Below are positions 1 through 31,516 of a DNA stretch of 36,545 nucleotides, piece after piece (within the stretch, counting starts at the first letter, position 1; each line of letters starts with the position of its first letter). The notes beneath the pieces were generated by a model that saw only the letters and a program-made list of their open reading frames with translations, was not told where the DNA came from and did no database searches. Both the position numbers and the translations under genes were made by a program. This DNA comes from Candidatus Gastranaerophilales bacterium (GTDB lineage Bacteria; Cyanobacteriota; Vampirovibrionia; Gastranaerophilales; Gastranaerophilaceae). Location of the stretch: positions 1 through 36,545 of the forward strand of contig CANPYW010000020.1 in the NCBI GenBank assembly GCA_947588745.1, written 5' to 3'.

Positions 1-3000
1 TCCACCGGAAGCATAATTATTGGCGAAATCGTTATTTGTTAATGTAGTAATCGTTCCATTCTCATCATTATAAATGGCACCACCCTCTGATACTTCCGTA
101 CCTGAAACATAATTATCCGCAAAAACATTTCCGTCAAATGTTGTAATTGTACCTTTGTTATATAAAGCTCCGCCTTGAGTTGTTTTGCTCGTTGCATAGT
201 TACCCGCAAAGGCACTGCTTTTCAAATTATCAATTGTTTTTTCATTATATATAGCACCGCCTTGTGCATTAATTGTACTATTTGTGTAATTATTAAGATA
301 AGTGTTATTACCGATAGTTCCAATATAATTTGCATTATATAATGCACCGCCTTGTGCATCATAACTATTAAATCTTTCTTTTTCTGTATAGTTGCCGACA
401 AAGTCGCTGTTTATCAAATTTGTAATTGTTCCCGAATTATGAACGGCTCCACCCTGAGAAGATTCAATTGATATCAAATAATTATTCAAAAAAGTATTTC
501 CGTCGATACTGCCAATTGTACCTTCATTATGTAAAGCACCGCCGTAAGAATGAAATCCGAATGTGAAATTCTCGACAAAAGCATTGTTTTGCATATTGCC
601 GATTTCGTTTTGATTATAAACAGCACCACCTTTTCCTGATGAAGTTCCATCGGCGTGATTTTTCCAGAAAGTATTTCCTTCAAATGTTGTGATTGTACCG
701 AAGTTATATAAAGCACCGCCATTTGCATAATATTCAGAACCGTTTTCAGTGCTGTTTTCAACAAAATAGTTATTGGTTAATGCTGTGATTTTACCTTCAT
801 TATATATAGCACCGCCTGCTTCATCGAACATTCCGGTTGCATAATTCTTTATATAACTGTTTGAATCGATTGTTTCAATTGTTCCGGCATTATATATAGC
901 ACCGCCGTATACTATGCTTCCATAGTTGATAATACCGTTGCTGACAAAATCATTGTTTGTTAATGAGGTAATTGTTTTTCCTACATTATTATATAAAGCA
1001 CCGCCTTTTATGTCTGAACCTGCTTCAATTTTATTATTCAAAAAAGTATTTCCGTCAAATGTTGTAATTCTACCATCATTATATAAAGCACCACCCTGGG
1101 CAGAAGAAAAATAGTGGTTTATATAGTTACCGACAAAGATGTTGTTTGTAAACTCTTCAATTCTTCCTGCATTATAAACGGCACCACCTTGTGATAATTC
1201 CGAACCTGAAACATAATTATTCAAAAAAGTATTTCCGTCAAATGTTGTAATTGTACCGGAGTTATATAAAGCACCGCCTTGTGTGTTTGCACTCTCTACA
1301 TAGTTACCGACAAAGCCGTTACTTAATAATTCGGAAATTTTTCCGCTTGAATATATAGCACCGCCTTTTGCTTTGTCTTCGCCGCTCGAATAATTATTTA
1401 AATATAAATTATTATCCATGGTTCCTATATTGGCAGCGTTATATATAACACCACCATAGGTGTTTTCAGATGTTGTATAATTTTCTACAAAATTATTGTT
1501 TGATATCCTTTTTATATTGGTCCTTCCCGATGTGCCGCAATTATATATAGCACCGCCTATGGATGCGGAATTAGCTTTGAAAGTTGAATTAAATATTCCA
1601 CCGTCATCTTCGATTCCTATGCTTGAATCATTATATATAGCACCGCCTAACCCGTTTCCGGTAACTTTTGCGGAATTTTCCACAAAATTACAATCTGTGA
1701 TTTTGTTTATTGTTGCATACCAATTGTATATTGCTCCCGCCTGGTTATACCGGCTGTCTCCATTTGTGTAGTTACCGATAAAATTGCTGTGTTCTATTGT
1801 TCCTATACTACCTTCATGATTATATATAGCACCGCCGTATATTTCAAAACCGCCTTCTACATAATTATTTACAAAATTACTGTTTGTTATGTGATCAATG
1901 CTACCATAATAATTATATATAGTACCGCCATGTGCATTTGTGTCTGTTGCATGATTACCCACAAAATCATTGTTTGCTAACTCGGTGATTGTACCAGTAT
2001 TATAAATAGCACCACCTCTTTCGGCATAGTTACCGACAAAGTCGTTGTTTGTAAGCTCTTCAATTTTATTCTCGTTATAAATGGCACCGCCATCTGAGGT
2101 GTAACTTTCGCCAGTATAGTTCTCGATAAAATTATTGTTTTCTAACTTTGTGATTGTACCTTCATTATAAATAGCACCACCTCTTGATGAATAGTTACCT
2201 ACAAAGTTGTTGTTTGTAAGTTCTTCAATCTTATTCTCATTATAAATGGCACCGCCATAGAATGCTGAACTCCCGTTAGAATAGTTCTCGATAAAATCAT
2301 TGTTGTCTAACTTTGTGATTGTACCTTCATTATAAATAGCACCACCTTTTGAGGAATAGTTACCTACAAAGTCATTGTTTGTTAATGTGGTAATTGTTCC
2401 ATTCTCATCATTATAAATGGCACCGCCTCGTGAATTTGTACCGGTACTATAATTCTTTAAAAAAGTATTTTCTTCGATTTTATCAATTGTTCCCTGATTG
2501 TACAAAGCACCGCCAAAGGAGGCAATAGAAGCGTAGTTAGCATGGTTTTCGACAAAGTCATTGTTTGTAAACTCTTCAATTCTTCCTTCATTATAAACGC
2601 TGCCGCCTTTTGATTCTGTAGTTCCTTGAACGTAATTTTTCAAAAAGGTATTACCGTCGAATTTTGTAATTGTACCTTCGTTATATAATGCACCACCTGC
2701 TGCTACCTTGTTATCAGCTTTGGCATAATTGTTCGAAAAAATATTTTCGCTGAATGTTGTAATAGTACCGGCATTAAATAATGCACCGCCATTTGATAAT
2801 CTTCCACCTTGTGTGTAATTATCCACAAATTTATTTGATTTGAAATTTTCAATTTTATTTTTATTATATACAGCACCGCCTTTTGCTGCCGGCCCTGATG
2901 TATAGTTGCCGGCAAAGTTGTTACTTAAGAAATCGGTGATTGTTCCTTCATTATATACGGCACCACCACGTGATTCATCAATACATTGAGCGTAATTATT

Positions 3001-4932
3001 TAAAAAGGTATTTCCGGTGAAAGTTTCAATTGTACCTTGATTATATATAGCACCGCCGTATGCTTTGTATCCGGCGTTTTTAGTATAGTTTCCGACAAAA
3101 TCGTTGTTTGTAAAGGTTGTAATTGTTCCATTCGACTCGTTATATAATGCACCACCTCTTGCTACTGATTCACCTTCTGTATAATTATTCAAAAAAGTGT
3201 TTCCGTCAAAAAGTTCAATTGTTCCTTTATTATATATACCGCCGCCGTATGCTGCCCAGCCTTTTGCATAATTGCCGACAAAATCGTTGTTTTTCAAATT
3301 TTTGATGTTATGCCCCGACTCGTTATAAACAGCTCCGCCCAATGATTCCGAAAAACTTTGTGCATAATTATTCAGCAAAGTATTACTCTCGATGTTTTCA
3401 ATTGAACCGTTATTATATAAAGCACCGCCTCTTGCATAACTTTCTTTCTCATTTTCTCCTTTGACATAGTTTCCGACAAAGTCGTTGTTTGTCAATGTTG
3501 TAATTATTCCATTCTCATCATTATAAATGGCACCACCTCTTGCAAAGGTTTGTGCTGCGGAATAATTATTCAAAAAGGTATTTTCGTCAAGTTTTTCGAT
3601 TGTACCTTTATTATATAATGCACCACTGTATGAAGAAGCTCCTTCTGCATAGTTGCCGACAAAATCATTGTTTGTCAAATTGGTGATTTTATCATGGTTA
3701 GAAATGGCACCGCCTTTTCCTTCTGATGTTCCTTTAGAATAATTATTCAAAAAGATATTTTCATTAAGATTTTCAATACTCTCTAAGTTATAAATAGCAC
3801 CGCCTTCTGAAAGAACTCCGTTTTCATTTAAAGCGTAGTTTTCGACAAATTGGTTTTTTGTTAAATTTGTGATTGTACCGTTATTATAAATAGCACCACC
3901 TGCTGTGTATTGGCTTCCCTTTGAATAATTTTTTATAAATTTATTTGATTCGACTGTTTCAATTTCGCTATTATTATATAACGCACCACCTTGTGAAGTT
4001 ACCCCGTCGGTGTTGTTACCTACAAATTCATTGTTTGTTAAACTGCCAATTTTTTTATGATTATATACGGCTCCTCCGTTTGCATCTTGATGACTTTTAA
4101 CGTAGTTGTTTAAAAAGGTATTTTGGTCAATTTTATCCATTGTACCTTTATTAAATAAAGCACCGCCTTCAGCTTCCTTTCCTCCGATATTTATAGTGTA
4201 GTTACCTACAAAATCACTGTTTAATAACTCTGTGAGTGTATTTTTATTGTAAATTGCACCGCCGCCGCCATAGGAATCTCCTTCGTACTGTGTTACTTCG
4301 GTATAATTATTCAAAAAAGTACTTCCGTCGATTTTAGTAATTGTATTTGTGTTATATATAGCACCGCCTTGTGCAATATTTCCCAATGAGTAGTTGCCGG
4401 AAAAATAGCTGCTTAATATCTCCTTAATTGTTCCGGTATTATGAATAGCTCCACCATTAGCATCAATATTACTTTTAACAAAGTTATTTAAAAATGTATT
4501 TTTTTCGATTTTATCAATTGTACCATCATTAAATATAGCACCGCCATCAGCGTTATAACTATGCATATTTTCTGCATAGTTGCCTGAAAAATTGCTGTTG
4601 GTTAAATTTGTTATTGTGCTATCTTTATCATTAAAAATAGCTCCACCTGCAGCATACTCATTTTCTGTTTCAGAAGTCGATGTTACCGTTGAATGGTTAT
4701 TCACAAAAGTACTTCCATCAATATCTTCGACAACATTGTTGTTAAATATAGCACCACCTTGTACTGTTGAGCCTGAAGTGCTGTTACCGGCGAAATTATC
4801 GCCAGTTACTTTTGTAATTGTACCTGAATTATAAACGGCACCACCTTTTGCAAAGTTACCATTTGCGTGGTTTTCCACAAAAACGTCCGTTCTCAGTTCT
4901 ATATTTTTGTCGGTATTTTCAATTGCACCGCC
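1..4932 (-). repeat. Array of about 54 coding repeats, about 91 bp each, in an alternating two-type pattern
   Basis: On the plus strand the landmark is gc(a/t)cc(a/g)cc, encoding GGA on the minus strand. It recurs about every 91 bp from near 76 to near 4922. Consecutive units alternate. One type reads like GTITxLTNNDFVGNY, the other like GTIDKIEENTFLKNY, so the true period is about 180 bp or 60 residues. Spacers between NY and GGA vary in length and sequence, while the GGA-YN and F..NY cores are kept. Count made by eye. Confidence 0.85.
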
Positions 4933-5250
4933 AGTTGCGGTTTCAGTACCGCTTGGAAGATTTGAAAAAGTCTTATCTTCTATTACTTCAGGAACATTGT
5001 TTTTGTCATATCTTTGTTCACTTGTGGATGAATATTGAACTACAATTGACTCATCAGTTTTCTCTTCCTGCTTTTTTAATACTGTATGGTTGTTTTCATC
5101 CTGTTCCCAATTGTAATAAAGTTCTTTATCCTTAACACTTCCGCTCTCAGCCGTTTGTGCCAGGGCTTGATTTATATTAAATGTGCTAATTCCAAAAATA
5201 GCAAATGCTGAAACCAACATTTTCTTATATTTTGTTCCGTTAGTACTCAT
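1..5250 (-). CDS. Giant secreted/surface protein with Pmp-like GGAI/FxxN repeats (C-terminus beyond window)
   Basis: The frame is open for 1750 codons from an ATG at 5250 and leaves the left edge without a stop. Residues 1-32 look like a signal peptide (basic MSTNGTKYKK start, hydrophobic core, likely cut after INQALA). A polar, non-repetitive segment follows to about residue 110. The rest is about 54 repeats of roughly 30 residues, each with GGA(I/L/V)-Y-N followed by a TI..(I/L)..N.F.(G/N)NY stretch. This is the GGAI + FxxN signature of the chlamydial polymorphic membrane protein middle domain, which folds as a beta-helix. The fold and an adhesin role are inferred from that family. The secretion or anchoring domain (autotransporter barrel or other) would lie outside the window. 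Upstream of the ATG there is only a loose purine-rich RBS (AGAGAAAGAG). Confidence 0.85.
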   Translation of the reverse strand, partial: MSTNGTKYKKMLVSAFAIFGISTFNINQALAQTAESGSVKDKELYYNWEQDENNHTVLKKQEEKTDESIVVQYSSTSEQRYDKNNVPEVIEDKTFSNLPSGTETATGGAIENTDKNIELRTDVFVENHANGNFAKGGAVYNSGTITKVTGDNFAGNSTSGSTVQGGAIFNNNVVEDIDGSTFVNNHSTVTSTSETENEYAAGGAIFNDKDSTITNLTNSNFSGNYAENMHSYNADGGAIFNDGTIDKIEKNTFLNNFVKSNIDANGGAIHNTGTIKEILSSYFSGNYSLGNIAQGGAIYNTNTITKIDGSTFLNNYTEVTQYEGDSYGGGGAIYNKNTLTELLNSDFVGNYTINIGGKEAEGGALFNKGTMDKIDQNTFLNNYVKSHQDANGGAVYNHKKIGSLTNNEFVGNNTDGVTSQGGALYNNSEIETVESNKFIKNYSKGSQYTAGGAIYNNGTITNLTKNQFVENYALNENGVLSEGGAIYNLESIENLNENIFLNNYSKGTSEGKGGAISNHDKITNLTNNDFVGNYAEGASSYSGALYNKGTIEKLDENTFLNNYSAAQTFARGGAIYNDENGIITTLTNNDFVGNYVKGENEKESYARGGALYNNGSIENIESNTLLNNYAQSFSESLGGAVYNESGHNIKNLKNNDFVGNYAKGWAAYGGGIYNKGTIELFDGNTFLNNYTEGESVARGGALYNESNGTITTFTNNDFVGNYTKNAGYKAYGGAIYNQGTIETFTGNTFLNNYAQCIDESRGGAVYNEGTITDFLSNNFAGNYTSGPAAKGGAVYNKNKIENFKSNKFVDNYTQGGRLSNGGALFNAGTITTFSENIFSNNYAKADNKVAAGGALYNEGTITKFDGNTFLKNYVQGTTESKGGSVYNEGRIEEFTNNDFVENHANYASIASFGGALYNQGTIDKIEENTFLKNYSTGTNSRGGAIYNDENGTITTLTNNDFVGNYSSKGGAIYNEGTITKLDNNDFIENYSNGSSAFYGGAIYNENKIEELTNNNFVGNYSSRGGAIYNEGTITKLENNNFIENYTGESYTSDGGAIYNENKIEELTNNDFVGNYAERGGAIYNTGTITELANNDFVGNHATDTNAHGGTIYNYYGSIDHITNSNFVNNYVEGGFEIYGGAIYNHEGSIGTIEHSNFIGNYTNGDSRYNQAGAIYNWYATINKITDCNFVENSAKVTGNGLGGAIYNDSSIGIEDDGGIFNSTFKANSASIGGAIYNCGTSGRTNIKRISNNNFVENYTTSENTYGGVIYNAANIGTMDNNLYLNNYSSGEDKAKGGAIYSSGKISELLSNGFVGNYVESANTQGGALYNSGTITTFDGNTFLNNYVSGSELSQGGAVYNAGRIEEFTNNIFVGNYINHYFSSAQGGALYNDGRITTFDGNTFLNNKIEAGSDIKGGALYNNVGKTITSLTNNDFVSNGIINYGSIVYGGAIYNAGTIETIDSNSYIKNYATGMFDEAGGAIYNEGKITALTNNYFVENSTENGSEYYANGGALYNFGTITTFEGNTFWKNHADGTSSGKGGAVYNQNEIGNMQNNAFVENFTFGFHSYGGALHNEGTIGSIDGNTFLNNYLISIESSQGGAVHNSGTITNLINSDFVGNYTEKERFNSYDAQGGALYNANYIGTIGNNTYLNNYTNSTINAQGGAIYNEKTIDNLKSSAFAGNYATSKTTQGGALYNKGTITTFDGNVFADNYVSGTEVSEGGAIYNDENGTITTLTNNDFANNYASGG
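2011..2340 (-). repeat. Two tandem 165-bp units, a recent internal duplication in the repeat protein gene
   Basis: The landmark accacc recurs at 2011, 2176 and 2341, exactly 165 bp apart (55 codons). Units 2011-2175 and 2176-2340 are mostly identical by eye. The differences concentrate in the spacer around 2090-2106 compared with 2255-2272. The duplication keeps the frame and spans one two-type superunit. Confidence 0.7.
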
Positions 5251-23509: not shown

Positions 23510-23827
23510 TTAAATATTTAAATATATTTCAAGTTTTTCAAATTGTTCACTTGTATCATCGAGCATATTTTTCAAAATAGAAAGTAAATTTTCGATATCG
23601 TTTTTCTTAAAATTTATTTCATCGTCAATGAATAAATCAATGCATTTGGTAAGGCTTTTTGTCATAGATAATATATTGCCGATAGAAACAATTAAAGATT
23701 CTAATTGTTCAGTATTATTCATTTTATTTTCAGAATAAGTTTCATTTTTAAAATTTTTGATATTAACCGGATTATTTGCTAATTCGATTTTTGTATTTTT
23801 TGTGAGTGTTTTTGCTGTTTTTTTCAT
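23510..23827 (-). CDS. Small unknown helical protein
   Basis: 105 residues. The first ~25 residues are basic and polar (MKKTAKTLTKNTKIELANN). The remainder looks like amphipathic helices, LESLIVSIGNILSMTKSLTK and NDIENLLSILKNMLDDT, with no membrane segment or known motif. An AAAGGGAG ribosome site is well placed before the ATG, so it is likely a real gene. It follows 37 bp upstream of the SGNH gene on the same strand and could be co-transcribed with it. Function unknown. Confidence 0.65.
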   Translation of the reverse strand: MKKTAKTLTKNTKIELANNPVNIKNFKNETYSENKMNNTEQLESLIVSIGNILSMTKSLTKCIDLFIDDEINFKKNDIENLLSILKNMLDDTSEQFEKLEIYLNI

Positions 23828-24061
23828 AATTTTTCTCCCTTTATCTACGGTTTTATAATAATTTCCTAAATTGAAGTTCTCTGAAATTAATTATACAAGC
23901 TCAAGAAGAAATAAAACAAACATATATTCATATTTACAAAATTTTACAAAAATATTTTTGTTAATCATCGTGAATTGTTAATTTTGCAATTTTTTCAGTA
24001 AATTTTTAATCTTTTTCTATTTATCTTCTTCTTTGTATAGTTTTGTAAACAAAATGAACTT
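23828..24061. other. Non-coding AT-rich region with two palindromes
   Basis: No gene is seen. It holds the perfect 16-bp palindrome ACAAAAATATTTTTGT (23946-23961) and the inverted repeat TTTTGT-AA-ACAAAA (24041-24054), the latter just upstream of repeat copy 1. Both could be operators, or chance in such AT-rich DNA. Confidence 0.4.
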
Positions 24062-24140
24062 AAAAACGCAATTATTTATTTTGTATATACTTTATATATG
24101 TGTAGATAATAAACAAAAAAAACCTAATTAAAAAAAATTA

Positions 24141-24231
24141 TATATTCATACTTACCTTACTTACTACCTTTACTAACACACGAGGAAATTGAAAAAGATT
24201 TCGGAGGAACTTTTAAAGTTCCTTTTTTTTT
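24141..24231 (+). ncRNA. Candidate small RNA, copy 1 (invariant core)
   Basis: The invariant part contains a long pyrimidine-rich stretch with little self-pairing (ACUUACCUUACUUACUACC and on). A small hairpin GAAAU/AUUUC comes next, then a strong intrinsic terminator. Upstream, in the repeat's 5' part, is promoter-like sequence (TTGTAT at 24081, GATAAT at 24105, 18-bp spacer), so the RNA may begin near 24115. No open frame with a ribosome site is present. The C/U-rich stretch could pair with purine-rich ribosome sites of target mRNAs; this is inference. Confidence 0.45.
24205..24231 (+). terminator. Intrinsic terminator in repeat copy 1
   Basis: Self-complementary AGGAACTTT/AAAGTTCCT (24205-24223) is followed by nine T residues. 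No plus-strand protein gene lies upstream, so it must end a non-coding transcript. Confidence 0.85.
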
Positions 24232-24260
24232 ATGTAATTCCATTTATAAGATTAAATTTT

Positions 24261-25943
24261 TTAGTTGTAATTTATATAAATTAAAAATAAATAAAAACAG
24301 TTAGAATCAATTGCAGTTATTGAATTATCGGAAGAATATGCCAGGGCTAAACGACCGTTTTTTAATGAAAAGTTAGTTGATGCAATTGAATTGGCAATTT
24401 TATTTTCGGTATCCAGATAATAAAGTATGGCATTATAATTCCCCGCCAAAATAAATCCTTTTTTGTAATTTGCAGAATGTATGAACTGAATTTCAGTACC
24501 GATATTTTTTATCCAATAATATTTTTCTGAGTTTGTTTGATTATATTCATAAACGGAAATTAAATTTTTTTCATCTTTTTCCGCTATTAATGTTGTGCCG
24601 TTTGATAGTCTTAAAGTACTTATTATATTTGTTTTCGGGTAGTATATATTATGCGAATAAACTTCATATTGAAGGTTTGCTTTATTTAATCTGCTTAATT
24701 GATTATAATCTGCGAAGTAGATATAGTTATAATCTTCGCCAGCTATAAAAGCACCTGTATTAACATTATTAATTTTTTCAATGGTATTAGTTCTGGTATT
24801 ATATTTTTCAACAAAGTTATTGTTTGTTTTACCTATAATTAAATTATTTTGTTTATCTAAAAAAGCGAAACTGTTTGTATTATCTAAATCAGTTTCTAAA
24901 CTTGGGCCAGGCGTAATTTTTGTCTTTTTAACGTCAAAAATTTCTGTTGATTTATCATTGCTACCTCCGTAAATTAAAACATTATTATTTGGAAGCAGGA
25001 ATAATCCCGGATTAATTTTCTCTGAATTTAGTTGAGGTGGAGCTCCATATCTGAATCCGTATGTTAGATTAAATAAATCCGTTAAATTAGAATTATTAAG
25101 GTTTGTTTCACGTGAATATTTGTGTTTTCCTCCTGCAATAAAGACTGTATCTTTGTTCAGATAAATTATGTTTCCGCTTTGTCTTAAGGAAGGAAATTTC
25201 GAATTGTGAGATTGAGTTGAAGTTACGGGGTAAATGCTTATTTCTTTTGTTATTATTTTTGGTAAGCTTGTATTTTCAGGATTATCTTGTTCTTTAATGA
25301 TTGATTTATCGGCGTAATCCTGCTTTTCAGAATATTTTAAAGATTTTTCAGGTTCTGTGAGGGTATATTCTTTTTTTGAAACGGTATTTTGAACGGTTAA
25401 TTTGTAGGGAATTAAGGGTTTGTTAGGATTTTGAAGTGTAAAAATAACTTTTTCGCTGTTTGCTGGAATAAAAGAGCCAATTAAAGATTGTTTGAATAGT
25501 TTTTGCTGATTTTTTTCTTTTCGGTTTTTTGCCGCTTTAAAAGGGGTTTTAGCGGCATCTTTAATTAAAAGCGGAATGGCTGCAACGATTAAAGGTGGAA
25601 ATACAATGGAACAAACACTATACATAAATGTATCATCAGACATTACAAATGAATTTTTTTTAAGTGACATAAGCAAGTTAAAATCGTCCTGATTGTACAA
25701 TTCACTTTCGTGAACGATTTTAAAATTATTGTTTGAGTTGTTAATTATAGAATATTTTTTGATAATAAACCGGTATGTATTTTCTTCAATATTTATATTT
25801 GTTTGATTAGGTTTTTTGATAACATAATTTATTTCTTCATCTTTTTGTAAATAAATATCATCATTTAAAACTTTCGCAAAAGAAGTTTGCGTACAAATGA
25901 AGCAAAATGCCAGTAATACAATACATCCTTTTTTTTTAATCAT
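24261..25943 (-). CDS. Secreted Kelch/beta-propeller-like protein
   Basis: 560 residues with a signal peptide (MIKKKGCIVLLAFCFICTQTSFA, cut near residue 23). Residues about 24-220 include a hydrophobic stretch (SIVFPPLIVAAIPLLI) that might be a membrane helix, then a beta-rich segment. From about 240 on there are repeated blade-like units with Kelch or galactose-oxidase character, such as TVFIAGGKHKYSRETN and VLIYGGSNDKSTEIFD, with further weak blades to the end. Kelch propellers bind proteins or glycans; no catalytic site is seen. It lies 34 bp after the OppF-like ATPase gene on the same strand, perhaps co-transcribed. Confidence 0.65.
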   Translation of the reverse strand: MIKKKGCIVLLAFCFICTQTSFAKVLNDDIYLQKDEEINYVIKKPNQTNINIEENTYRFIIKKYSIINNSNNNFKIVHESELYNQDDFNLLMSLKKNSFVMSDDTFMYSVCSIVFPPLIVAAIPLLIKDAAKTPFKAAKNRKEKNQQKLFKQSLIGSFIPANSEKVIFTLQNPNKPLIPYKLTVQNTVSKKEYTLTEPEKSLKYSEKQDYADKSIIKEQDNPENTSLPKIITKEISIYPVTSTQSHNSKFPSLRQSGNIIYLNKDTVFIAGGKHKYSRETNLNNSNLTDLFNLTYGFRYGAPPQLNSEKINPGLFLLPNNNVLIYGGSNDKSTEIFDVKKTKITPGPSLETDLDNTNSFAFLDKQNNLIIGKTNNNFVEKYNTRTNTIEKINNVNTGAFIAGEDYNYIYFADYNQLSRLNKANLQYEVYSHNIYYPKTNIISTLRLSNGTTLIAEKDEKNLISVYEYNQTNSEKYYWIKNIGTEIQFIHSANYKKGFILAGNYNAILYYLDTENKIANSIASTNFSLKNGRLALAYSSDNSITAIDSNCFYLFLIYINYN

Positions 25944-25977
25944 AATTTCCCTTTGATATTTTAATGTATTATATCAT

Positions 25978-26955
25978 TTATTGAAAATTATTATCGATTA
26001 AAAAACATCTCACTTTATGATTTTGATTAATCGGTTTTAAATCCGGGTGTTCGGTTCTGCATTTATCCGTAACGTAAGGGCATCTTGTGTTAAATTTGCA
26101 GCCTTTGGGTGGATTATTCGGTGAGGGTAAATCCTGTGCAGAGGATGATTTCATTTCATTTTTTGCTTTATTAAGCATGGGAACTGCATTTAAAAGTGCT
26201 TGAGTGTATGGATGTTTGTAATTGGTAAAAAATTCTTGTTTTGGTGCAAGTTCGACAATTTCACCCAAATACATTACCGCAATCCTGTCCGATATATATT
26301 TTACAACACTTAAATCGTGAGATATAAAAAGCATTGTTAAATTGAGGTGTTGTTTTAAATCAAGCAATAAATTTACAATTTGAGCCTGTATACTCACATC
26401 CAATGCACTTACGGGTTCATCCGCCACAATAAATTCGGGATTTAATATAACGGCTCTTGCAATAGCTATTCTTTGCCGTTGTCCACCCGAAAATTCATTC
26501 GGATACCTTAAAAGTGCTTCGGCTTGCAATCCTATTATTTCTAGTATTTTTTGAATTTTTTCATCAATTGTTTTTTTGTTTTTTATTCCGTTAACGATAA
26601 AAGGCTCTTTTAAAATATCATAGATTTTCATTCTCGGGTCTAAACTCGTATAAGGATTTTGAAATATAGGCTGGGCTTGTTTTCTGAATAGTTTTAAATC
26701 TTTTTTATTTTTTGTTAGTATATCTTCATTTTTAAATAAAACTTTTCCGCTTGTAGGTTTAATCAATTTTAAAATACAATTTCCCAGCGTCGATTTACCG
26801 CTTCCCGATTCGCCGACAAGCCCCAAAATTTCATTTTCGTATATTTCCAAATCAACGTTATTAAGTGCATAAACATAACCTTTTATATTCCCGAATAAAC
26901 TGTCTTTTACGGGATAATGCATATTTAATTTCTGTATATTAATAAGTTCTTTCAT
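25978..26955 (-). CDS. Oligopeptide/dipeptide ABC transporter ATP-binding protein (OppF/DppF type)
   Basis: 325 residues. Walker A GLVGESGSGKST, Q-loop FQNPYTSLDPRM, signature FSGGQRQRIAIARA, Walker B FIVADEPVSALD and the switch histidine in LFISHDLSVV are all intact. The C-terminal oligopeptide-transporter extension with a cysteine cluster (CKFNTRCPYVTDKC) is present and is typical of OppF/DppF. It should energise peptide import with a second ATPase and two permeases. None of these (OppA, B, C, D) is in the window, so it is an orphan here. There is no good ribosome site before the ATG. Confidence 0.92.
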   Translation of the reverse strand: MKELINIQKLNMHYPVKDSLFGNIKGYVYALNNVDLEIYENEILGLVGESGSGKSTLGNCILKLIKPTSGKVLFKNEDILTKNKKDLKLFRKQAQPIFQNPYTSLDPRMKIYDILKEPFIVNGIKNKKTIDEKIQKILEIIGLQAEALLRYPNEFSGGQRQRIAIARAVILNPEFIVADEPVSALDVSIQAQIVNLLLDLKQHLNLTMLFISHDLSVVKYISDRIAVMYLGEIVELAPKQEFFTNYKHPYTQALLNAVPMLNKAKNEMKSSSAQDLPSPNNPPKGCKFNTRCPYVTDKCRTEHPDLKPINQNHKVRCFLIDNNFQ

Positions 26956-27057
26956 ATTTTAATTATACATTAATTTTTATTTAAAAAAATTGTACAGGGG
27001 TTAATTCTTTTGTCCGATATTTTATCAAATGTTAACTTTTGTTAACTAAATTAATCC
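26956..27057. other. Intergenic region upstream of repeat copy 2
   Basis: Two GTTAAC palindromes lie 10 bp apart (27031-27036 and 27041-27046), one helical turn, just ahead of the repeat. No gene is seen. Confidence 0.35.
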
Positions 27058-27136
27058 AAAAAACGCAATTATTTATTTTGTATATACTTTATATATATGT
27101 AGATGATAAAACAAAAAGAAACCTAATTAAAAATTT

Positions 27137-27227
27137 TATATTCATACTTACCTTACTTACTACCTTTACTAACACACGAGGAAATTGAAAAAGATTTCGG
27201 AGGAACTTTTAAAGTTCCTTTTTTTTT
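27137..27227 (+). ncRNA. Candidate small RNA, copy 2 (invariant core)
   Basis: Same invariant core as copy 1: pyrimidine-rich single-stranded-looking part, short hairpin and terminator. The promoter-like elements are kept at the same spacing (TTGTAT, 18 bp, GATGAT in place of GATAAT), so this copy may be weaker. It lies between the divergent OppF-like gene and glmU. Confidence 0.45.
27201..27227 (+). terminator. Intrinsic terminator in repeat copy 2
   Basis: AGGAACTTT/AAAGTTCCT (27201-27219) followed by nine T residues, identical to copy 1. It insulates glmU from anything transcribed upstream. Confidence 0.85.
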
Positions 27228-27233
27228 ATGTAA

Positions 27234-27435
27234 AAGTAAAAGTAAAGGTAAAAATTTCCGGCTTGTCTGTGTTTACGCTATATTTAGCAAGTATTTGAAA
27301 AGTAGGTATTAATATCCTCTCTTTACATAATTTAGGTTGATTAAATATTAATTTTTATCAAGTAAAATTGCATTTATTGGAACAATTTTTAATGTTCATG
27401 ACAAAATAGAATTATTGATAGGAAAGAGTGGATTT
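27234..27435 (+). other. Leader region of glmU
   Basis: About 200 bp without a gene between repeat copy 2 and glmU. It must hold the glmU-prs promoter, but I find no convincing -35/-10 pair. TTGCAT with TAATGT at 16-bp spacing is the nearest. Confidence 0.3.
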
Positions 27436-28749
27436 ATGGTGAATAAAAAAGTAATATCTGTAATTCTTGCTGCGGGTAAAGGTACAAGAATGAAATCTTC
27501 TCTGCCTAAAGTTTTACATACCATTTTTAATAAGCCCTTATTGGGTTATGTTCTTGAAGCCGTTAATTCTACCGGTTATGTAAGTGATAATTTTGTTATA
27601 GTCGGGCATGAGGCACAAAAAGTTGAAGAATTCGTACGGAATAATTATTCTTTTGTCAAATGCATTTTGCAAATGCCTCAGCGTGGTACGGGTGATGCAG
27701 TAAACAGGGCTGTTCCGTTTTTAAAGAATTTTGACGGGTATGTAATTGTTGTATGCGGTGATACTCCTTTAATTACGGGCGAAACTCTTAAAAGTTTTAT
27801 CGAGTATCACGAAAATAGCAATGCCGATTTAACCGTAATGTCCGCTATATTTGACAATCCGCAAAATTACGGAAGAATAATCAGGGATGAAAATAACAAA
27901 TTTATTGCAATAGTTGAAGAAAAAGATGCGACGGATGAACAAAAAGCGGTAAAAGAGGTGAATGCGGGTTTATATTGTATCAGCTGGAAAAGTGTTAACG
28001 AAGCGTTTGCGTGTTTGAAAAATAATAATGCACAGGGTGAATATTATTTGACCGATATCGTAAAATGGGCGGTATTAAAAGGATTAAATGTTCAATCTTA
28101 TGTGTTAAACGATAATTCCGAAATATTCGGAATAAACTCCAAACAAAATCTTGCTCAAGCGTTTAAAATTATGAATAAAAAGTCGCTTGAAAGATTGATG
28201 TCAGAAGGGGTTCAAATTACGGATGCGGATTCCGTTTATATTTCGCCCGAAACAACAATAGGTGCGGATACGATTGTTCTTCCCAATGTTTATATTTCCG
28301 GTAAAAACGAAATCGGAAAGAATTGTAAAATAGGGCCTTTTGCACATATCAGAGATGGTGCCGTTATAGGAAATAATGTCAGAATAGGTAATTTTGTAGA
28401 AATAAAAAAATCGGTAATAAAAGATAATACAAATGTATCTCATTTAAGCTATATAGGTGATTCGGAGCTGGGTTCGCACGTTAATATAGGGGCGGGAACA
28501 ATAACCGCAAATTATAATCCGATTACAAAAGTAAAGAGTAAAACAATTATAAAAGACGGTGCAAATACAGGGTCGAATTCGGTTCTTGTTGCACCCGTTA
28601 CGATTAACGAAATGGCGTCAATCGGGGCAGGGAGCGTTATTACAAAGGATGTTGAAGAATATGCACTTGCGGTTACGAGAAGTCCGGTGAAAATAATATC
28701 AAATTGGGTAAAAAGAAAGATTGAACAATATGTTGGAGGTAATAAATAA
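27436..28749 (+). CDS. glmU: Bifunctional UDP-N-acetylglucosamine pyrophosphorylase / glucosamine-1-phosphate N-acetyltransferase
   Basis: 437 residues from the ATG at 27436, which has GGAAAGAG upstream; an in-frame TTG at 27415 is less likely. It makes UDP-GlcNAc for peptidoglycan and lipopolysaccharide. The N-terminal uridylyltransferase has LAAGKGTRMKSSLPKVLH (11-28), QRGTGDAV and VCGDTPLI. The C-terminal left-handed beta-helix acetyltransferase has hexapeptide repeats and the GlmU motifs KKSVI, HLSYIGD and NIGAGTITANYNP. Length is near the usual ~450. The prs start codon overlaps its stop by one base (TAATG), the conserved glmU-prs pairing. Confidence 0.96.
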   Translation: MVNKKVISVILAAGKGTRMKSSLPKVLHTIFNKPLLGYVLEAVNSTGYVSDNFVIVGHEAQKVEEFVRNNYSFVKCILQMPQRGTGDAVNRAVPFLKNFDGYVIVVCGDTPLITGETLKSFIEYHENSNADLTVMSAIFDNPQNYGRIIRDENNKFIAIVEEKDATDEQKAVKEVNAGLYCISWKSVNEAFACLKNNNAQGEYYLTDIVKWAVLKGLNVQSYVLNDNSEIFGINSKQNLAQAFKIMNKKSLERLMSEGVQITDADSVYISPETTIGADTIVLPNVYISGKNEIGKNCKIGPFAHIRDGAVIGNNVRIGNFVEIKKSVIKDNTNVSHLSYIGDSELGSHVNIGAGTITANYNPITKVKSKTIIKDGANTGSNSVLVAPVTINEMASIGAGSVITKDVEEYALAVTRSPVKIISNWVKRKIEQYVGGNK

Positions 28750-30466: not shown

Positions 30467-30541
30467 ATTTAACTACTCCAATAAAAAAATTATATCATCT
30501 TTATTTTATAATAGGAAGGGTAGAAATGTAAGGTAATAAAA

Positions 30542-31516
30542 ATGATTTATAAAAGCTGCCAGTGGGTAAACAGGGGTATAGAGTTCAGACGTGATTCTTT
30601 AAGAATATGCTGCTATGGATATTTGCAAGGGCGAGAAACCGAGTATCAGACGACAATTAAAGAAGATTACCATGGCGAGCTTTTAGATTGGAATGAAATA
30701 TTTAAAATAAAAGAAGAGCTGAAAAATCAGCATAAACTGGGTATTTATCTTGATGCTTGTAAGGATTGCATATATTTACACGAGGATGACTGGGATGAAG
30801 AAAATTATATCAATCATTTTACCTTAAATCATTGGTCAAAATGCAACTGTAACTGCATATATTGTTATACAAAAGATGATAAAAAAGCTTTTAATTCGTT
30901 TAAAGAGTATCCTTTGTATCCGATAATAAAAGATATGTTTAATAAAGAGGTAATCAAGAAAACGGAGAGTTCCTGTATCATATTCGGTGGTGGAGAGCCT
31001 ACCATATTAAAGGACTTTGATAAACTTATTGATTTATTTCTTGAAAAAGGCTGTAAGAATATAAGAATTAATTCTTCGGGTATAAAGTATTCAAAAAGTA
31101 TTGAAAAGGGGCTTAAACTTGGGGCAATAAGCCTTGTGATATCAACGGATGCCGGGTGTCAAAAGACTTATGAGCGGATTAAACAGGTTCGAGCATACAA
31201 AAAAGTTTGGGAAAATATACGTAAATATGCGGAAGCTCAATGCAAAGATAATTTGATGAAAGTTAAATTTATATTGTATCCGGATGTGAATGATACTTAT
31301 GAAGAAATTGATAAATGGTTTGATGAAGTTATAAAAAACGGAGTAAAAGCCGTCAGTTTAAGCGTTGAGCAGGATTGGTTCAATACTCACCAGCCTAAAT
31401 TTACGCCTAAAATATATGAACAGATAGCTTATATGGAAAAACGTGCAAAGGAATTAAATCTGGATATGGAGATTTATTGCGAGGCACTTGCGGTGTTAAG
31501 AGAGCATAAAAATTAG
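30542..31516 (+). CDS. Radical SAM protein with cysteine-rich N-terminal region
   Basis: 324 residues. The radical SAM cluster motif CxxxCxxC is C101-x3-C105-x2-C108, in KCNCNCIYCY. The SAM-binding GGGEPT motif lies at about 145-150, and the partial TIM barrel continues (IRINSSGIKYS, LVISTDAG). Before the core, residues 1-80 hold five cysteines (6, 23, 24, 73, 76), with a CKDC pair at 73-76. These could bind an auxiliary iron-sulphur cluster, here N-terminal rather than C-terminal as in SPASM proteins. No peptide precursor or other substrate gene is evident nearby. AAGG about 8 nt before the ATG serves as ribosome site. Confidence 0.85.
   Translation: MIYKSCQWVNRGIEFRRDSLRICCYGYLQGRETEYQTTIKEDYHGELLDWNEIFKIKEELKNQHKLGIYLDACKDCIYLHEDDWDEENYINHFTLNHWSKCNCNCIYCYTKDDKKAFNSFKEYPLYPIIKDMFNKEVIKKTESSCIIFGGGEPTILKDFDKLIDLFLEKGCKNIRINSSGIKYSKSIEKGLKLGAISLVISTDAGCQKTYERIKQVRAYKKVWENIRKYAEAQCKDNLMKVKFILYPDVNDTYEEIDKWFDEVIKNGVKAVSLSVEQDWFNTHQPKFTPKIYEQIAYMEKRAKELNLDMEIYCEALAVLREHKN

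Follow-up and report, generated by a model that had tools for sequence, protein, structure and literature searches.

sRNA-I, a probable multicopy small RNA family of the Gastranaerophilales with a complementary partner RNA and candidate small-protein mRNA targets

Two described groups of small RNAs (sRNAs) come nearest to the element reported here. LhrC1-5 of Listeria monocytogenes are described as several homologous copies with redundant CU-rich UCCC motifs in loops and single-stranded regions, under a two-component system and impeding translation of the target mRNA, for which Hfq is not required there (PMC4132741). Yfr1 of cyanobacteria is described as an RNA of 54-69 nucleotides (nt) in which two stem-loops lie around 16-20 unpaired nt holding ACUCCUCACAC (PMC2190773). 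The present element, which we call sRNA-I, occurs twice in a contig of 36,545 nt from a Candidatus Gastranaerophilales bacterium (CANPYW010000020.1, assembly GCA_947588745.1); this whole stretch is the window. On balance, sequence comparison leads us to favour sRNA-I as an Hfq-independent antisense sRNA that covers ribosome sites and is countered by a sponge RNA. It would be a multicopy, trans-acting RNA with its own promoter and intrinsic terminator, whose single-stranded C/U/A tract would pair with leaders, poor in C and rich in GU, of small-protein mRNAs made from the same class of promoter. The pairing would cover the ribosome site and start codon, most clearly for a ~52-aa MNPRLVKF.. protein in relatives, and sRNA-I would most likely repress translation of the mRNAs so paired. 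The pyrimidine tract of another RNA, sRNA-III, would pair with two regions of sRNA-I, its purine-rich 5' part and its ACACGAGGA element, as well as with a third RNA, sRNA-II; sRNA-III probably acts as a sponge. We infer transcription, the direction of regulation and this sponge role; the family, structure, distribution, promoter class and complementarity beyond shuffled controls are computed.

By analogy, LhrC is the closest working model. On the published description, the two share multiple homologous copies (sRNA-I mostly has 1-4 matches per genome) and C/U-rich target sites, and sRNA-I is proposed to act likewise without Hfq. The differences are that the sRNA-I core, read directly, contains no UCCC (TCCC), that sRNA-I has two adjacent 3' hairpins and an unpaired 5' half and comes from another phylum, and that its proposed target shares its promoter class while a complementary partner sRNA exists. 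Where LhrC is under two-component control, sRNA-I has only a histidine kinase gene beside one of its loci. The two are set apart by Rfam thresholds and by description, not by direct alignment. As far as Yfr1 is described, it too has a conserved unpaired stretch before a terminator hairpin and is conserved across a whole related lineage, but sRNA-I, at a predicted ~125-130 nt, is longer, with its unpaired part on the 5' side of two adjacent 3' hairpins. An initial annotation of the window had taken the Yfr resemblance as analogy only, the sequence being different; indeed the Yfr1 undecanucleotide ACUCCUCACAC has no match in the window at up to one mismatch. The pairing of one sRNA with another recalls sRNA sponges and anti-sRNAs as generally described, from which the proposed sponge sRNA-III differs in sharing its partner's promoter class and in being seen in three genera.

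Repeat comparison places the two units at 24062-24237 and 27059-27233. The initial annotation described two same-oriented units with an invariant 97-nt core and a drifted 5' part, and this description stands: the 3' core is identical over 95-97 nt, within a direct repeat of 105 nt with 99% identity (24133-24237 / 27129-27233), and the diverged 80-nt pair 5' of it (24041-24120 / 27038-27117) is 84% identical. The C/U-rich stretch that had looked unpaired is unpaired in the folds, and the end of the copy 1 tract is the start of the ACACGAGGA element complementary to sRNA-III. A coding role was rejected, as by eye there is no conserved frame and loop lengths differ by single bases.

A third core was found in the same genome (C15:16357-16451, minus strand, 96% identical to the 95-nt core), and copies were found in relatives, as the initial annotation had proposed to look for. 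In the genus of the window's genome (g1, the genus meant below unless another is named), BLAST recovered at least part of the core in 34 of 35 genomes, its own included; the same search matched none of 23 genomes of other genera. In one genome (G010) the BLAST match is a terminator-like stretch only, with no sRNA-I match by covariance model, and in another (G019) the copies are partial and at contig ends only. A pattern scan of named genomes returned 57 sRNA-I stretches, titled Ca. Gastranaerophilales, Ca. Avigastranaerophilus faecigallinarum, 'Cyanobacteria bacterium SIG29' (two) and bacteria from goat cecum and roe deer omasum (three). The covariance model that the initial annotation had suggested was built first from 8 sequences, finding sRNA-I in 113 of 286 genomes of the order, and also from 30 sequences of several genera, finding it in 332 of 383 order genomes and 37 of 52 genera (E <= 0.001). 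A phylum-wide model search of 194 genomes gave 84 with a match (E <= 0.01), all within the host family; by listing order, the other 110 comprise one of the host family, three of the same class and 106 from outside the class. Strict filters in the model searches make such absences uncertain. No Rfam 15 family reached its gathering threshold at the loci scanned, the best match at E up to 10 being MicF (21 bits against a threshold of 79, E 0.47), and a search of the literature on small RNAs or sigma factors of Gastranaerophilales found nothing relevant.

Folding energy alone is unremarkable for sRNA-I (z -0.4 to -1.3). Base pairing is maintained through substitution: within the genus 98.1% of cells are paired, with double changes at 6 of 13 pairs (78 matches, 58 distinct), and across genera the figures are 97.6% and 9 of 13 (30 sequences). 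The covariation score of the cross-genus set was 0.740, compared with 0.274 for shuffles and at most 0.243 for slid controls; as the alignments were fitted to the covariance model, they favour its structure. Covariation thus supports two hairpins, including the terminator recognised in the initial annotation. Within the genus the tract varies little and, except in L068, contains no G, while the terminator stem does change; the tract of other genera is poor in G, though not strictly without it, and changes by gain or loss of short units. A covarying terminator would also be expected if the core were mainly a stand-alone terminator or insulating unit with the tract as an accessory. We regard this as very improbable, given the near constancy of the single-stranded tract, the element's own promoter motif and the varying downstream genes. 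Moreover, the open reading frames (ORFs) 5' of copies 1 and 2 (23510-23827 and 25978-26955) run opposite to sRNA-I, so that neither window copy has a co-directional gene immediately upstream and each would seem to form a separate transcription unit.

Two types of 5' part occur in the genus, with ACGAGGA directly 5' of the core in 25 of 80 copies (type B) but not in the other 55 (type A). The upstream ORF was read for 72 genus copies. A sensor histidine kinase gene (HisKA, HATPase_c) adjoins 21 of these, in 21 genomes (15 type B, 6 not), and a DUF2229/HGD-D protein gene adjoins 18, in 18 genomes, none of them type B. The kinase neighbour was found again in genera g41 and g47, and the third copy of the window's genome sits at the DUF2229 locus. 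No sRNA-I match was found in phage and plasmid collections, nor the exact core pattern in viral contigs. From the two loci common to many genomes, and from this lack of phage, plasmid or viral matches, we take sRNA-I to have been inherited mostly vertically, with local duplication. A mobile or recombining repeat that happens to carry a terminator, which the initial annotation had named as a possible undoing of its proposal, would suit the usual one to four copies per genome, the position of the window copies at loci not common to other species and the identity of within-genome copies outside the genus, which can extend over ~250 bp or more. It is scarcely credible in view of the shared loci, one of which is also found in distant genera, the negative searches and substitutions that preserve structure. 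Concerted evolution of copies in the genus found no support, the terminator segment being common to 4 of 20 within-genome A/B pairs and 85 of 780 between-genome pairs. Distribution, covariation, the two shared loci and the absence of an Rfam match or relevant literature together make sRNA-I very probably a real, undescribed, order-wide sRNA family, as had been suspected for this lineage.

Most sRNA-I copies are preceded by GCAATT-N15-ACTTTATATA or a close variant; those in g41 and f7 have no recognisable form of it. The promoter-like sequence of the initial annotation is real as a motif, over-represented in the genus: all 39 genus genomes contain it at 3-11 sites each, compared with 3 matches over all 39 for the reversed control. 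A shorter form occurs at 6-27 sites in each of 12 genomes of 10 other genera (control, 3 matches), part of which were fetched and read. Besides sRNA-I, the motif precedes two other sRNAs and many genes for small proteins. The window's genome has eight sites: three belong to the sRNA-I copies, two to sRNA-III (one of them truncated at a contig end) and one to sRNA-II, and the remaining two precede ORFs, one small and one larger. Many of the other sites in relatives stand before genes for small proteins; the families there include the ~52-aa MNPRLVKF proteins, a ~335-aa family and a 21-22-aa microprotein. A Pfam scan of nine regulon proteins named only two above cut-off, a ribbon-helix-helix protein and an HD-domain protein. 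Candidate pyrimidine-tract RNAs IV and V, with the same promoter, were read in g30, g39 and g47. Of two such candidate sRNAs in other genera, one has a CUAACCUACCUAACUUCC-type tract (L392, L434, L377, L444, L406, L420; more diverged in L406/L420) and one, of ~55 nt, has GCUCUCUCUUCUUAUUU (L412, L433, L442). The microprotein, of MKALLNFINRRKRFSTFVLLNI type (L224, L236, L242, L244, L307, L410, L431), is alike by eye in two genera. Neither the promoter class nor the complementary partner sRNA figured in the initial annotation.

The clearest candidate target of the tract is the leader of the MNPRLVKF (MNP) gene; of 35 genomes with a match, 30 entered the test (30 loci; starts set by tblastn). Mean pairing energy was -20.35 kcal/mol, compared with -15.03 (sd 0.97) for 300 shuffled tracts, none of which did as well, -14.0 for shuffled leaders and -10.2 for the mirrored tract; each of the 30 leaders paired better than its own shuffles did on average. 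The leaders are almost free of C (0.8%), and 23 of 30 contain GGUUAG. By eye the pairing is collinear (GUUAGU/ACUAAC, GGUAG-type words/CUACC, UAUGAAU/AUUCAUA) and spans leader, ribosome site and start codon. Consistent with action without Hfq, a chaperone search limited to Hfq found none in 30 genomes of the order, the window's included, while 5 of 14 control genomes were positive. A general anti-ribosome-site role was rejected, since 326 background leaders, a set that includes mutual orthologs and in which regulon genes were kept, averaged only -9.9 kcal/mol. The radical SAM gene at 30542 was the best of these 326 and was rejected as a conserved target, with none of 29 orthologs keeping the pairing (-3.3 to -12.7). 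Long targets in the window's genome were likewise rejected: a 21-nt reverse-complement pattern, with up to 3 mismatches, matched only the three sRNA-I copies.

That the order of the tract matters for MNP pairing in the genus (0 of 300 shuffles) speaks against an alternative in which sRNA-I titrates an RNA-binding protein, its CUUAC/CUAAC/CCUAC repeats being protein sites, like GGA in Csr/Rsm sponges, and antisense pairing being secondary. Such repeated sites would fit a tract that gains and loses short units yet stays G-poor in other genera, and outside the genus own-genome tracts have no pairing advantage. A protein decoy, however, does not predict complementarity to sRNA-III, and we consider this explanation unlikely.

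In sRNA-II a tract similar to that of sRNA-I precedes GGAUAGUA..UUUUACAUUCCGAAUU, and the 3' end differs (L249, L257, L262, L083, L084, L086, L087). The sRNA-III tract, CUCUCUCUUAAUAUCCUCGUGUUUAUUU, is highly conserved: of 39 genus genomes, 38 carry its 22-nt heart unchanged in a search allowing up to 3 mismatches, and the tract is also present in two genomes of g30 and, one T shorter, in one genome of g51. The g30 and g51 examples were found with a pattern holding part of the tract, so that this search alone cannot show invariance, which rests on the g1 searches allowing up to 4 substitutions or 3 mismatches. Against shuffled tracts, the sRNA-III tract was complementary to sRNA-II (z -6.7, n=7), to the 5' parts of sRNA-I type A (z -5.1, n=40), type B (z -3.7, n=17) and other genera (z -5.3, n=14), and to the sRNA-I core (z -3.7, n=32); in these tests at most 1 of 200 shuffled tracts was as good. 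Copy by copy, 68 of 73 transcripts were tested, 5 without a recognised -10 box being dropped; contig-end copies (L032, L071, L075, L076, L079, L081, L082) and stray matches (L088, L089) had been left out earlier. Mean z was -3.25, and the strongest single pairing reported was -39.3 kcal/mol (L013). sRNA-III genes stand as a tandem pair ~260 bp apart in 5 of 39 genus genomes (G006, G011, G018, G021, G025; L253, L264, L217). In two IMG/VR contigs (L447, L448) an sRNA-III gene lies beside a phage-like stretch with, by eye, a reverse-transcriptase-like ORF; possibly this is an integration site.

Outside the genus, regulon leaders look GU-type or GA-type. Among 36 leaders placed by hand in 7 genomes (those from G073, G105, G172, G235 and G260 were not scored), the own sRNA-I tract put 4 in the best 5% of 63 background leaders and sRNA-III put 7 there, with ~2 expected. 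The latter figure suits a reading that overlaps with the one we favour and differs in direction alone, in which sRNA-III is the effector, repressing mRNAs with GA-rich ribosome sites, and sRNA-I and sRNA-II are sponges through their purine 5' parts. The very constant heart of sRNA-III, including UAUCCUC, complementary to GAGGAUA, would agree with this. We hold it to be doubtful: GA leaders pair almost equally with the mirrored tract, regulon leaders of the genus show nothing, and the sRNA-I tract has an mRNA match of its own.

Several results weigh against sRNA-I as a sponge-controlled antisense repressor. The MNP leader was picked after several leader classes had been viewed, and the genomes compared are related and so not independent. 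The MNP match is lost in the genome of the window (-7.7), and in G007 the leader is also unpaired (-6.2). A control radical SAM gene (30 loci, own genome included) averaged -8.72, with a slight effect of its own (matched by 11 of 300 shuffled tracts, p 0.038). The suggestion of the initial annotation that the C/U stretch could pair with purine-rich ribosome sites has partial support: background leaders pair weakly, but the MNP leader in relatives goes well beyond shuffles, though that of the window's genome does not. Among eight GU leaders from other genera the own-genome tract had a mean rank of 5.25 of 7 (expected 4), so lineage-specific matching of tract and leader outside g1 was rejected as unsupported; for three g1 leaders the rank was 2.33. 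For sRNA-III, some sRNA-I copies pair weakly (z -1.4 to -2), and two G022 copies without ACACGAGGA (L074, L085) do not pair, while L011 of that genome does and L077 was dropped from the test. The negative control of 39 g1 mRNA leaders, which includes six with misplaced starts where the triplet is no start codon (L218, L233, L248, L254, L258, L260), showed no pairing with sRNA-III (z +1.7), and GA-type leaders of other genera paired little better with it (-18.41) than with the mirrored tract (-18.07). Lastly, the window copies lie at neither shared locus.

A wider reading is offered tentatively. In a self-contained, Hfq-free circuit, one promoter class would drive several pyrimidine-tract sRNAs and small-protein mRNAs with matched leaders (C-poor leaders against G-poor tracts), the sRNAs would sort the mRNAs by leader type, and a highly conserved cross-genus partner sRNA would control the sRNAs. 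We hold it at lower odds because of the rank of GU leaders outside g1 and the pairing of GA leaders with the mirrored tract.

Features of the window are collected in Table 1. 3' of copy 1 lies a convergent ORF (24261-25943), and a GlmU-like ORF (27415-28749) begins ~190 nt beyond the T-run of copy 2. Elsewhere in the window, the radical SAM protein at 30542-31516 has 39 family matches (E <= 1e-20) in its own genome of 2 Mb, which amounts to a large paralogous expansion; the other genomes of the genus have 0-42. On the minus strand of 1-5250, an open frame of at least 1750 aa made of GGAIYN..NNDFVGNY-type repeats runs off the contig and by eye resembles a repeat adhesin.

Table 1. Positions of sRNA-I parts and of a weak candidate target in the window
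Feature	Position	Strand	Basis
Copy 1 promoter, GCAATT-N15-ACTTTATATA	24068-24098	+	motif
Copy 1 predicted sRNA-I transcript	24104-24231	+	5' end inferred to a few nt; 3' end in T-run 24223-24231
Copy 1 unpaired C/U/A tract (UUCAUACUUACC...ACACACG), proposed target-binding region	24145-24182	+	folds, conservation, complementarity
Copy 1 hairpin 1 (GAAAUU..GAUUUC)	24185-24202	+	folds, covariation
Copy 1 intrinsic terminator hairpin and T-run	24204-24231	+	folds, covariation
Copy 2 promoter, GCAATT-N15-ACTTTATATA	27065-27095	+	motif
Copy 2 predicted sRNA-I transcript	27101-27227	+	5' end inferred
Copy 2 unpaired C/U/A tract	27141-27178	+	folds, conservation, complementarity
Copy 2 hairpin 1	27181-27198	+	folds, covariation
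Copy 2 intrinsic terminator hairpin and T-run	27200-27227	+	folds, covariation
Leader of radical SAM gene 30542-31516, weak candidate target	30505-30556	+	complementarity to sRNA-I tract

The Gastranaerophilales are uncultured gut relatives of cyanobacteria. A multicopy sRNA that most genomes of the order contain, and for which a partner sRNA, a candidate target and a promoter motif can be named, offers a concrete entry to their gene regulation, and sRNA-I may serve both as a test case for antisense control without Hfq and as an RNA family to annotate.

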